A stretch of 64,000 bases of DNA from Cytophaga hutchinsonii ATCC 33406 (GCF_000014145.1 NC_008255.1:4046001-4110000); one strand, 5' to 3'. Shown: positions 41,265 to 45,511, counted from the stretch's first letter. Program-made: numbers and translations. Notes: generated by a model not told the origin, from the letters alone.

Positions 41265-41702
41265 TTAGTCCATTTTGTTTTCTTCAATTTTTCCATCGGC
41301 ACTGAAAGTTACTTTACGTTCTTCTGCGCCTTTTTCAACATCAACTTTATAACGTACTGTATTTCCCACTTCAATTTTTTTAGCATCATCCACTTTATAA
41401 CCGCTGAAGTTTTTCTGAATGGAAGCGGTAACAGCCGATGGAAGATCGCTTACAGCTATTTCCTGTTTGTGTTTAACAATTTTTCCGGTACTGTCTAAAT
41501 AAACACTGTGGTCCATATTTTTAATTTCGAATTCTGCTTCGTACAATCCTCTTTTTAATTCCCACTCAACAACAGATTGCTGCGGAAATTTTTGCTGAAA
41601 GGCATTTACAACAACAGCCGGTACATCTTTCTGAGCAATATCCTGTGCATACGAAACACAGCCTGTGCTCATAACTAAAAACAATATAGATAGCTTTTTC
41701 AT
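41265..41702 (-). CDS. PepSY-like (DUF2874) periplasmic protein
   Basis: 145 aa with a signal peptide (MKKLSILFLVMSTGCVSYAQ). Two PepSY-like repeats follow: VPAVVVNAFQQKFPQQSVVEWELKRGLYEAEFEI... and LPSAVTASIQKNFSGYKVDDAKKIEVGNTVRYKVDVEKG, each an alpha helix then a beta sheet. Members of this Bacteroidetes family are periplasmic and often encoded beside two-component systems. Here it is the last gene of the OmpR regulator, kinase and outer-membrane protein module, with its own upstream copy of the shared 17-bp element at 41747-41763. Confidence 0.87.
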   Translation of the reverse strand: MKKLSILFLVMSTGCVSYAQDIAQKDVPAVVVNAFQQKFPQQSVVEWELKRGLYEAEFEIKNMDHSVYLDSTGKIVKHKQEIAVSDLPSAVTASIQKNFSGYKVDDAKKIEVGNTVRYKVDVEKGAEERKVTFSADGKIEENKMD

Positions 41703-41746
41703 AAATTTTTTTTGGTTTGGTTATATTACAAATAAATACATTAAAA

Positions 41747-41763
41747 CAGGAAACAATTGGGAA
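41747..41763 (-). promoter_or_regulatory. Shared 17-bp regulator element, copy upstream of the PepSY-like gene
   Basis: On the minus strand it reads TTCCCAATTGTTTCCTG, with TTCCC and TTTCC ten bases apart, starting 61 bases upstream of the start codon. It matches the copies at 42621 and 44601 at 14 of 17 positions or better. A TTTATTTG sequence about 18 bases downstream could be the -7 element. Confidence 0.6.
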
Positions 41764-41778
41764 CAGAAATTTATTGTA

Positions 41779-42585
41779 TTATTTTCTTTTGGGTTCATAA
41801 ATAAATCTGAAAAATACAGATGGTTCATAAGCCTGGTTGATTGGTATGGCTGTTACAAGGCCAACAGCGATTGAAGAAGAAACGTTATATTTTATCTGGG
41901 GATGCAGAATTGTTGAATAGCTGTCATTCAAATACACATGATTTAATTCCGCACCGGCAAAATTCTTTTTTAAGAATGCATAAAACATGCTTGCATGTAC
42001 CTGATATCCCAGGGAATTTGCAGTTGAAGAAAACATCTGCTCATAAAGTGGTCCGGCGATAAGCATGGTATGCATATTTGCCCCCCATTTTTTTGCTGTA
42101 ATTAAAAACGGACTGTATAAATTTCCTTTGGCTAATTTATTTTCATTGCTTAGTGTTTTAAAAGAATGAAACAGAAATTGATTGGTATATGCTACAGCCA
42201 TGGATAACTTCTTTTCAGGAGAAACTAAAAAGGTGTATTGCGCAGATACTTTTATTCCTTCCATTCTGTTTTTAGGATTGAGCGCAGGATTTGTATTTTC
42301 AAACGGCAGCACCTGATAAAATGCAAGCGGCACTTCAACTTCCATGTCGAAGCGATTGAACAAAGCAAATTCGTATTCTATAAAACTGCCGTACGAAATA
42401 TATTGATTGTTTTTTTGAATACTGCCGCCAACATTTAATTCCTGTTCGCCGCGCCTTGCACCAAGGTCACGGATCAGGTCCATGTATAACGGTTCGGCAT
42501 GGCTTACTTTAGGTAAAACAGGATTCTGCGCCAGTACAGAATACATGCTTATAATACAGATAATAAAAGATAGGAGTTGTTTCAT
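41779..42585 (-). CDS. Predicted outer-membrane beta-barrel protein of the PepSY/two-component module
   Basis: 268 aa from the ATG at 42585, which gives a clean signal peptide (LLSFIICIISMYSVLAQ); a start 21 bases upstream would spoil it. The early HAEPLYMDLIRDLGARRGEQELNVGG motif is strongly conserved in a Bacteroidetes family of this kind. The rest shows alternating hydrophobic strands (FIEYEFALFNRFDMEVEVPLAF, GIKVSAQYTFLVSPEKKLSMAVAYT) ending SVFFRFIYEPKRK. Function unknown. It lies between the kinase and PepSY genes and has its own copy of the shared upstream element. Confidence 0.72.
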   Translation of the reverse strand: MKQLLSFIICIISMYSVLAQNPVLPKVSHAEPLYMDLIRDLGARRGEQELNVGGSIQKNNQYISYGSFIEYEFALFNRFDMEVEVPLAFYQVLPFENTNPALNPKNRMEGIKVSAQYTFLVSPEKKLSMAVAYTNQFLFHSFKTLSNENKLAKGNLYSPFLITAKKWGANMHTMLIAGPLYEQMFSSTANSLGYQVHASMFYAFLKKNFAGAELNHVYLNDSYSTILHPQIKYNVSSSIAVGLVTAIPINQAYEPSVFFRFIYEPKRK

Positions 42586-42620
42586 GATTCCTGAATTTTC
42601 AGTCAAATTAAAAACTGAAT

Positions 42621-42637
42621 CAGGAAAGAATTGGGAA
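42621..42637 (-). promoter_or_regulatory. Shared 17-bp regulator element, copy upstream of the outer-membrane protein gene
   Basis: Minus strand TTCCCAATTCTTTCCTG, 16 of 17 identical to the PepSY copy, between the kinase stop and the outer-membrane gene start. Confidence 0.6.
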
Positions 42638-42645
42638 ATAAAATA

Positions 42646-43905
42646 TTAAAACCCGATTTTAATTTTATGCATTCCCTGATAGGAATAAAAGATCTTGAAT
42701 TTATATTTGTCGGCAATTGTTTTTACAATAGCGAGCCCGAGACCGGTAGTGTTTTTTTCAGCGGAATTTTTATAAAAGCGCATAAAAATATTTTTTTCAT
42801 CAAGCGCGGTATCCCCGGAGTTTTGAATGGTTACCGCATGCGCTTCAGTAATAATTTGTACAGAACCATTTGCCGGCGTATGCACAATGGCATTTTTAAT
42901 TAAATTGCTTAATAAAACATCTGCCAGATCTTTATTCATTTTTACAGAAACATCCGCTTGGTTAACATATTTAAGAGAAATATTTTTAAAGGAAGCCAGA
43001 TCTGAAAAATCAGTTGTTAAGCGCTCACAAATTTCAGCAATCGAAATCTGTGCTTCATCGGTAAATTGTTTGTTTTCAATTTTAGATAGTAATAGTAAGG
43101 ATTTATTTAAACGCGTCAGGCGATGCAGATTTTCGATTGCAGAAGCTACCATGGACAGATCAGATTCTGAAAGATCATTTTTTTCTGCCAGCAGCTCCAG
43201 CTTGTTAATACTTATAGCAAGAGGTGTCTGTAATTCATGCGAAGCATTTTCTATAAATTGTTTTTGACTGTTATAGAGTTCTATATTCTTTTTTAGAAGA
43301 TCAGAAATGGCAGTATTCAACAGTTTAAACTCATGTACATTTGTTTGCGGAGTATTGAAGTTGCTGGAATGTAAACTGAAGCTTTCCAGCTGCTTCAATA
43401 AACCATAAAATGGTTTCCAGATTTTTTTTAATAAAACAGTATTAACAATAAAAATACTGATCAGTAAAATGATATAGAGCCAGATGAGTGAATAAAAAAG
43501 ATCTTCGATAAGATCATCTTCCTCAACCATAGATGAAATGATGCGTAATTCATAATAATCGGAATGGTTTATTGTAAAAACAGTTTTTAGTAAACGCACG
43601 GTTTCCAGATCGTCTTCGTTAAGCATATACATGCTTGTATCTTTAAACACATCTTTTCTTTTATGTATTTCCAGATCGGTAATTTTACGGATGGCATAAT
43701 TGCTTTCATCAAAAGATGTTTTTTGAAGAATAGAAGAATCTTTATGTGCCTTTTGAATAATGAGCAGTTTGTAATTTTCAAGGTTATCATCGATACTATC
43801 GTACACTTCATCGAGCATCTGGAAATAAAACGTGGCCGCCCAAACACTAATGATGAAAAAAAGTGCAACAGATATGTAGAGTAATGTATAGTTGTGTAAC
43901 CTCAT
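42646..43905 (-). CDS. Sensor histidine kinase of OmpR-type two-component system
   Basis: 419 aa. Membrane helices at about 9-28 and 138-158 enclose a periplasmic sensor region of about 110 residues (YDSIDDNLENYK...), then a linker. The HisKA phosphoacceptor is His223 in QFIENASHELQTPLA, the N box is LLSNLIKNAIVHTP, and the G boxes are represented by TIQNSGDTALD and TTGLGLAIV. The ATP-binding domain looks complete. It overlaps the response-regulator gene by 4 bases, so the two are translationally coupled. The sensed signal is unknown; the periplasmic PepSY-like protein nearby is a plausible accessory. Confidence 0.92.
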   Translation of the reverse strand: MRLHNYTLLYISVALFFIISVWAATFYFQMLDEVYDSIDDNLENYKLLIIQKAHKDSSILQKTSFDESNYAIRKITDLEIHKRKDVFKDTSMYMLNEDDLETVRLLKTVFTINHSDYYELRIISSMVEEDDLIEDLFYSLIWLYIILLISIFIVNTVLLKKIWKPFYGLLKQLESFSLHSSNFNTPQTNVHEFKLLNTAISDLLKKNIELYNSQKQFIENASHELQTPLAISINKLELLAEKNDLSESDLSMVASAIENLHRLTRLNKSLLLLSKIENKQFTDEAQISIAEICERLTTDFSDLASFKNISLKYVNQADVSVKMNKDLADVLLSNLIKNAIVHTPANGSVQIITEAHAVTIQNSGDTALDEKNIFMRFYKNSAEKNTTGLGLAIVKTIADKYKFKIFYSYQGMHKIKIGF

Positions 43906-44579
43906 AAAGCGATAAGCTTATAACCAATGCCGTAAACTGCCTGAATTTCGATTGCAGCTTGTTGATCCTTTAATTTTTTACGCAGATTTTTTATTTGCGA
44001 ATAAATGAATTCAAAATCATCTGATTCATCGGTAAAGTCGCCCCATACATGTTCGGCTAAAGAAGTTTTATTTATGAGCCTGTTTTTGTTTACCATAAAA
44101 TAAGCCAGCACGTCAAACTCTTTTCTGTTCAGTGCAATAGGTTCATTGTTTATAAACGCAACGCGGTCTTCAAACTGAATCTTAACATTGTTGATCTCGA
44201 GTTCATTTTTCCCCTTCAATGTTTTTCTCCTAAGCACAGATTTAACGCGTGCTGTTAGTTCCGCAATATGAAAGGGCTTGATTAAATAATCATCCGCACC
44301 AAGATTAAGTCCTGCAACTTTATCTTCAATAGAATTTTTTGCTGAAATAATAATGACGTTACTTGCTTTGTCAAGCCGTTTCAATTCTTTTAAAATATCA
44401 AAACCACTTCCATCGGGCAGCATAATATCAAGTAAAATACAATCGTAATCAAACGAAATAATTTTGTCCAAAGCGCTCTGATACGTGGTTGCTGATTCTA
44501 CAACATACAATTCCTTTTCGAGTGTTTCCTGAACTATTTCCTGCATGGAAACTTCATCTTCGATCACTAAAATTTTCAT
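43902..44579 (-). CDS. OmpR/PhoB-family response regulator
   Basis: 225 aa. Receiver domain with acidic pair E7-D8, phosphoacceptor D51 in ILLDIMLPDGSG, Ser79 in the T/S position and Lys101 in LIKPFHIAEL. The winged-helix output domain (about 128-225) has ALNRKEFDVLAYFMVN and the DDFEFIYSQIKNLRKKLKDQQAAIEIQAVYGIGYKL recognition-helix region typical of the family. OmpR-type dimers bind tandem 10-bp-spaced repeats, the same spacing seen in the shared element upstream of this gene (44601-44617). Confidence 0.93.
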   Translation of the reverse strand: MKILVIEDEVSMQEIVQETLEKELYVVESATTYQSALDKIISFDYDCILLDIMLPDGSGFDILKELKRLDKASNVIIISAKNSIEDKVAGLNLGADDYLIKPFHIAELTARVKSVLRRKTLKGKNELEINNVKIQFEDRVAFINNEPIALNRKEFDVLAYFMVNKNRLINKTSLAEHVWGDFTDESDDFEFIYSQIKNLRKKLKDQQAAIEIQAVYGIGYKLIAL

Positions 44580-44911
44580 GATTCAATTAACAGTTTAATT
44601 CTGTAAAGAATTGGGAATTAAAGCAATTAACAAAGGTTAATTCACATCATTTTTAATTTTATTGAAAAAAACTTCACAAAAGCACATTTTATATATTTTA
44701 TTCAACAAGCTGAATTTACATAATACCTGTCAAATAGAAATAGTATTTGAAAGTAAAAATTTCGCAGAATTATTTTTAATTTCAATCTATAAACCAGCTA
44801 TTTTTTGATCTTATTCAGGTCACATACGTTACAATGAAATAATCACGATAAGCATTGTATTTATTGTAACAGCACGGCTGGCATGCAATCACGCTAAATG
44901 GAAAAGAACGT
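44580..44911. other. 332-bp divergent intergenic region
   Basis: Lies between the minus-strand response regulator and the plus-strand PAS-domain gene. It holds the regulator element at 44601 and a perfect 8-bp inverted repeat GTTACAAT/ATTGTAAC (44828-44835 and 44863-44870, 27 bases apart) 41 bases before the PAS gene. The rest is AT-rich without recognisable features. Confidence 0.5.
44601..44617 (-). promoter_or_regulatory. Shared 17-bp regulator element, copy upstream of the response-regulator gene
   Basis: Minus strand TTCCCAATTCTTTACAG. Its distance to the start codon is only 21 bases from the near end, which would leave almost no leader if the same promoter spacing applied, so here it may act in autoregulation with a different promoter position. 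Confidence 0.5.
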
Positions 44912-45511
44912 ATGACAGGAGAATTATCTGAAAGCAGAAATCAGGAAACAACACTTGATAATCTTATAGAGGGGTTTCAACTAATAAGTTTTGATTGGAA
45001 GTACTTGTATGTGAATGACGCTGTCATAAAGCATAGTAAGTATTCCAAAGAAGAATTACTTGGCTATACGATGATGGAAAAATATCCGGGTATTGAAAAA
45101 ACGCCGATGTTTGATCTGTTAAAAGTTTGTATGCGCGAACGCAAAGCAGATTATTTTGAAAATGAATTTACATATCCCGACAATTCTAAAGGCTGGTTTG
45201 AATTGCGGATACAGCCAGTTTCAGAAGGGTTGTTTATACTATCCATTGATATCACAGAACGTAAAAAAATTGAAGAAAACAGAATTGAATATATTAACGG
45301 CCTGGAAAAAATGCTGTTCATGACATCGCACCGGGTACGTCAGCCAATTACACAAATCATGGGAATGTCTTCACTATTAAATACAACAAAAAGTACACGC
45401 GAAGACCTGTTACAGATTACCGATTACATGAAACAGTCCGTTGAATCACTGGATTCTTTCACCAAAGAATTAACAACGTATATGAATAGCCTGCACGATC
45501 GGTTCAAGTAG
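44912..45511 (+). CDS. PAS-domain protein with orphan histidine-kinase-like dimerisation helix
   Basis: 199 aa. One PAS fold (about 15-120; LIEGFQLISFDWKYLYVNDAVIKHSKYSKEELLGYT...FILSIDITERKKIEE) is followed by a DHp-like helical pair with an H-box, MTSH140RVRQPITQIMG. The frame ends there: no N, G1 or F boxes and hence no ATPase domain. It cannot phosphorylate itself, so it could be a phosphotransfer or decoy partner for a full kinase, or a remnant. The TAG stop is part of the terminal repeat of the palindromic element at 45508. Confidence 0.8.
   Translation: MTGELSESRNQETTLDNLIEGFQLISFDWKYLYVNDAVIKHSKYSKEELLGYTMMEKYPGIEKTPMFDLLKVCMRERKADYFENEFTYPDNSKGWFELRIQPVSEGLFILSIDITERKKIEENRIEYINGLEKMLFMTSHRVRQPITQIMGMSSLLNTTKSTREDLLQITDYMKQSVESLDSFTKELTTYMNSLHDRFK

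Follow-up and report, generated by a model that had tools for sequence, protein, structure and literature searches.

A conserved 11-bp direct-repeat element at the promoters of a regulator-kinase, PepSY and outer-membrane protein module in Cytophaga hutchinsonii and other Bacteroidota

Three promoters in one gene cluster of Cytophaga hutchinsonii ATCC 33406 share an element that consists of two 11-bp direct repeats followed by a -7 box, and this element recurs at the equivalent genes across Bacteroidota, where its presence tracks one clade of response regulators. Very probably, the element is the previously undescribed docking site of the regulator encoded in the cluster rather than a chance match, and comparison of the genomes presents it as new and widely conserved, an operator for a regulator of a known kind. 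No prior description of the motif was found in the literature on PepSY proteins with two-component systems in Bacteroidetes and, to our knowledge, few regulator binding sites have been described in Bacteroidota. With conservation extending from Cytophaga to Bacteroidales, regulons in many genomes could be annotated from one footprint, and the element gives a regulatory context to two families of unknown function, HAEPLYID and DUF2490.

The module and its repeat element

The cluster lies on the minus strand of the window, the whole 64,000-nucleotide stretch of DNA that was analysed (NC_008255.1:4046001-4110000); positions are counted from the first letter of the window unless they are given as genome coordinates. 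The first gene encodes an OmpR/PhoB-type response regulator of 225 amino acids (43902-44579; MKILVIEDE...GIGYKLIAL), in which a receiver domain (Pfam Response_reg, PF00072, 101 bits) is combined with a winged-helix output domain (Trans_reg_C, PF00486, 64 bits). The start of the sensor histidine kinase gene (42646-43905) overlaps the end of the regulator gene by 4 bp, and the same adjacency is found in most of the relatives. The kinase (419 amino acids; HisKA and HATPase_c domains) has two transmembrane segments, a loop of ~105 amino acids (about 31-135) and the phospho-acceptor His223 in the motif HELQT; Tyr35, 70, 87, 93, 117 and 118 are conserved in 14-22 of the 22 sequences, with Phe87 in C. 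hutchinsonii.

Further downstream are the genes for a HAEPLYID-family outer-membrane protein of 268 amino acids (41779-42585; NF041634, 291.6 bits) and a PepSY_like exported protein of 145 amino acids (41265-41702; PF11396, E 7.5e-12), a family in which the relatives with solved structures include 3u1w, 4fr9, 3due and 3db7. The AlphaFold model of the HAEPLYID protein (pLDDT 70.5; moderate confidence, six sequences) is a 12-stranded barrel, with FapF and the COG4313 channel as the best neighbours in the PDB. HAEPLYID was considered as a marker of the module and rejected, most of its relatives being encoded away from the regulator-kinase pair; in other genomes, a DUF2490 gene takes its place inside the module. 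On the opposite side of the regulator, a divergent gene (44912-45511, plus strand) encodes a 199-amino-acid protein with PAS and HisKA domains but without an ATPase domain, and in each of the two other Cytophaga genomes (L115, L124) this gene has likewise been kept beside the module.

A reading of the DNA made from the sequence alone (hereafter, the sequence-only reading) had placed a 17-bp element upstream of three of these genes, and exact matches were found at all three positions on the minus strand: TTCCCAATTGTTTCCTG at 41747-41763, 44 nt upstream of the ATG of the PepSY gene, TTCCCAATTCTTTCCTG at 42621-42637, 35 nt upstream of that of the HAEPLYID gene, and TTCCCAATTCTTTACAG at 44601-44617, 21 nt upstream of that of the regulator gene. 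The three copies are identical at 14 of the 17 positions, as that reading had it with its minimum of 14, but two of its details had to be revised: the half-sites are not 10 but 11 bases apart, in the register TTCC-N7-TT(C/A)C, and a -7 sequence, noticed at two copies only, is recognizable as a -7-like box at the equivalent position in all three. The full element runs ~5 bp 3' beyond the 17-mer (AGAATTC) and comprises two 11-bp direct repeats, ATTCCCAATTCT-TTCCAGAATTC, with the consensus half-site TTCCNRATTSN; the -7 box, of the Bacteroidota type (TAnnTTTG), is located ~6 bp further. The element spans 44596-44617 (the 17-mer plus 5 bp) in the regulator-kinase promoter, where it is conserved in orthologues, 42616-42637 in the promoter of the outer-membrane protein gene and 41742-41763 in that of the PepSY gene, each interval containing the respective 17-mer. 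The corresponding -7-like boxes, also on the minus strand, are TTAATTG (44584-44590), 4 nt before the ATG of the regulator gene and ~10 nt after the 17-mer, a position that is fixed in orthologues, TTAATTTG (42604-42611) for the outer-membrane protein gene and TTTATTTG (41729-41736) for the PepSY gene, the latter two with the same spacing as in orthologues.

Conservation of the element and its link to one regulator clade

The first five orthologous modules from the same order all have the element at the equivalent genes, and the surrounding DNA differs. The comparison was extended to 80 loci within the order whose kinases are of the same family and to 80 named loci from Cytophagia, Flavobacteriia, Sphingobacteriia, Chitinophagia and Bacteroidales. 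Among the named loci, TTCC-N7-TT(C/A)C is present upstream of the regulator gene in 47 of 77 and upstream of the PepSY gene in 48 of 57, compared with a mean of 0.3 for shuffled sequences and 0-7 for other spacings, and it is found in none of the 79 regions upstream of the kinase gene, inside the operon. The element has the form expected of an operator for OmpR/PhoB-type regulators, at least two direct half-sites 10-11 bp apart, with the N7 spacing far ahead of any other; sites of this kind come from Cytophaga, Flavobacterium, Sphingobacterium, Chitinophagaceae and Bacteroidales loci. Some close orthologues have no recognizable site upstream of the regulator gene (for example, L228, L235, L236, L122 and L123), and some of the loci scored as lacking a site (L218 is one) contain a near form, which falls outside the strict pattern. 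Bacteroidales regulators at 36-40% identity were set aside as other regulators, with no kinase or PepSY match in the region examined. No relatives were found in viral contigs.

The aligned sites read aATTCCCAATTCTTTCCaGAATT......tAatTTt in the regulator promoters and ATTCCCAATTCTTTCCAGATTCg.....TA.cTTTG in the PepSY promoters, and in most of the promoters with a recognizable canonical box, the -7 box starts 10-11 nt after the 17-mer. The majority of the regulator promoters have just 22-25 nt between the 17-mer and the start codon, so that the regulator mRNA should be leaderless or near-leaderless. No separate -33 element is conserved in these alignments; the repeat takes its place, which suggests an activator site. 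In two loci, arrays of 3-4 half-sites (L293:5834-5872 and L242:5819-5846) precede two-domain PepSY genes with a step of exactly 11 bp, as expected for a tandem-binding regulator, and these arrays suggest cooperative binding.

The presence of the site follows the regulator. Under the strict pattern, the site was detected in 82 of the 98 loci with a regulator at least 55% identical, compared with 18 of the 61 loci below 55%. In the tree of 159 regulators, with site presence scored under the same pattern, a single supported clade has the site in 84 of its 100 members, and presence or absence changes 16 times along the tree, compared with 47.8 times when the labels are shuffled. Gln195 in the DNA-binding domain of the regulator occurs in 85 of the 100 proteins with the motif vs 19 of the 59 without it, an association that is a correlation only and partly reflects phylogeny.

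The targets vary by lineage, namely, HAEPLYID, DUF2490 or TolC/RND. In a sister group of regulators from Spirosoma/Dyadobacter-type genomes (L125-L149), the site is present on both strands of the DNA that separates the regulator gene from a divergent operon for an outer-membrane efflux protein (TolC; PF02321) and an AcrB-type RND pump (PF00873). The related regulator of this group seems to control efflux. Across lineages, then, the targets are exchanged and the pairing of site and regulator is kept. A second regulator-kinase pair of the same family in C. hutchinsonii, at 3.115 Mb, lacks the site, so membership in the kinase family alone does not imply it. This second pair (genome 3115345-3117272; L120), outside the window, scores over the PorY-family cut-off and adjoins genes that read like ftsA-ftsZ; the region upstream of it contains no TTCC repeat but has a different stretch, AGTTAATTAAAAAAA(G/C)TAAATTTAG, in common with two congeners (L174, L183).

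Genome-wide scans and the extent of the probable regulon

Pattern searches of the complete genome, a single contig of 4,433,218 bp (4.43 Mb), yielded exact matches to the 17-mer only at the three module copies and no matches with one mismatch. Two mismatches gave 10 further matches, seven of these inside ORFs, which we regard as background because the reversed pattern gives seven. A wider regulon defined by exact or near-exact 17-mers was accordingly rejected, given the lack of an excess over the reversed pattern. One match, at 340430, falls within the beginning of a coding sequence, has no -7 box at a suitable position and is probably due to chance. The sole promoter-like site among the ten two-mismatch matches inspected is a weak copy, TTCTCAATAGTTTACAG, at genome 4118740-4118756 (L355), 30 nt before an ORF that begins MRKVKIVLLIALAAFASCTIVRPGEVG, a lipoprotein-like start; this ORF is a possible minor target.

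A search for the architecture of the promoters, that is, the repeat plus the -7 box, returned five matches in the whole genome, namely, the three module promoters, the promoter of a DUF2490 outer-membrane protein gene and one site inside a gene, compared with one match for the reversed control. The DUF2490 gene (genome 4170381-4171265; L356, L368) is located outside the window, ~80 kb from the module, and the match at 4,171,232-4,171,265 combines a diverged copy of the element, which reads TTCCTGTTTTTTTCCGG, with a -7 box. This site was first predicted from another Cytophaga species (L190), in which a perfect site and a -7 box precede the orthologous gene; the C. hutchinsonii protein is 67% identical to that orthologue, and the site was then found upstream of its gene. 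Because this remote promoter bears the same site, which is kept in a second Cytophaga, the module is not the closed signalling circuit that the sequence-only reading had proposed, and relatives swap in other targets.

Proposed mode of action and comparison with known systems

We consider it likely that the cluster regulator binds the element at four promoters and activates them, with the kinase sensing a periplasmic cue. Under this scenario, a phosphorylated dimer of the regulator would bind the two 11-bp direct half-sites; with the half-sites occupying the stretch in which a -33 element would be expected, the regulator would recruit RNA polymerase to the -7 box at a fixed distance, and transcription would be activated from the regulator-bound promoters. 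One of these promoters would drive the regulator-kinase pair, by positive autoregulation and from a near-leaderless mRNA, and the other three would drive the expression of two outer-membrane proteins, the HAEPLYID barrel and the distant DUF2490 protein, and of the periplasmic PepSY protein. The signal may be haem or iron, by analogy with HaeSR of P. gingivalis, and sensing of an envelope condition by the module is plausible given the periplasmic loop of the kinase. The earlier proposal that the regulator controls all three units, including itself, holds in the sense that one element is common to the promoters of a module built around the regulator, the regulator's own included, which is strongly supported by the conservation at orthologous modules and the agreement with the regulator clade; binding by this particular regulator is what we infer.

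The choice of activation follows from the position of the site, and this same position could be read in the opposite way, with the cluster regulator binding as a repressor and the module being switched on upon release. Because it extends over the -33 region to a point near the -7 box, the site could also block the polymerase by overlapping the core promoter, and both activation and repression by HaeR, at different promoters, have been reported (PMC3764172). However, no -33 consensus is conserved beside the site, as expected of an activator-dependent promoter, a fixed phase between site and -7 box is what activators typically show, and HaeR, which binds the promoter of its own gene, activates itself (PMC3764172). 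Repression therefore appears unlikely. The element might, instead, be recognized by another DNA-binding protein or represent a -35-type element of an ECF sigma factor, and merely travel with the module. The connection between the protein and the site is indirect, and P. gingivalis PorXY acts via the ECF factor SigP (PMC4800418), but the tandem structure of the site with its arrays of 3-4 units, the primary-sigma type of the -7 box and the persistence of the site within the regulator clade even as the targets change make this improbable.

The kinase itself could be PorY acting on PorX, which would make the module part of type IX secretion control. NCBIfam assigns the kinase to the PorY family (NF052314; 501.7 bits vs a cut-off of 350), and the genome has, at 1.201 Mb, a gene for a protein with a PglZ domain like that of PorX. 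However, the second gene pair of C. hutchinsonii is over the same cut-off, and the kinase gene of the module overlaps an OmpR-type regulator gene, a neighbour that nearly all of the relatives found have, whereas PorY has no adjacent regulator (PMC8050853, PMC4800418) and the partner expected for it, PorX, with a PglZ-type domain in place of an OmpR-type one, has its candidate 2.9 Mb away. In addition, P. gingivalis porY and porX are far apart, and PorXY was reported not to be autoregulated (PMC8050853). Thus, a role in type IX secretion control is very improbable. Finally, chance resemblance or recent local duplication of the three copies, which lie within 2.9 kb, is refuted by the recurrence of the site at orthologous promoters throughout the phylum, where the flanks are otherwise unrelated.

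The element resembles the sites of several known regulators. PmrA, PhoB, CpxR and BqsR are OmpR/PhoB-family regulators with 11-bp tandem sites; like the module, they have a pair of direct half-sites spaced by one helical turn in the -35/-33 region, a small regulon, autoregulation and exported targets. The half-site TTCCNRATTSN and the Bacteroidota -7 box set the module apart, the sequence being unlike any of theirs.

The nearest studied system, judged on gene order and published features, appears to be HaeSR of P. gingivalis (PG0719-PG0720, with PG0717 in the same locus; PMC3764172, PMC5706477), which is a better match than PorXY. In both cases, the regulator-kinase pair is located near a PF11396/DUF2874 (PepSY_like) gene (P. 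gingivalis gene order from PMC3764172). By the published description, HaeS consists of 427 amino acids, with phospho-His226, a periplasmic part of 104 amino acids and conserved tyrosines, including Y88, which is important for the binding of haemin (PMC5706477), compared with 419 amino acids, His223 and ~105 amino acids in the module kinase, which also has the HExxT phospho-site and conserved periplasmic tyrosines. The two systems differ in that PG0717 has four DUF2874 domains, with PG0718 located between, and the HaeR regulon is far larger, with 57 genes identified by ChIP-seq, including gingipains and haem uptake (PMC3764172, PMC5706477). Haemin or iron is, accordingly, offered as a lead for the signal of the module, taken from HaeSR (PMC3764172, PMC5706477). 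A broader generalization, to which we give somewhat less than even chances, is that one conserved operator defines a phylum-wide HaeSR-type system of Bacteroidota, in which an autoregulated regulator, with an 11-bp tandem repeat replacing the -33 element, would in every case be coupled to a PepSY protein of the periplasm and to outer-membrane barrels or efflux pumps that can stand in for one another, in response to haem, iron or another envelope-related signal. The binding of HaeR to promoters was published without a binding motif (PMC3764172), and the element described here offers a motif to test in HaeR.
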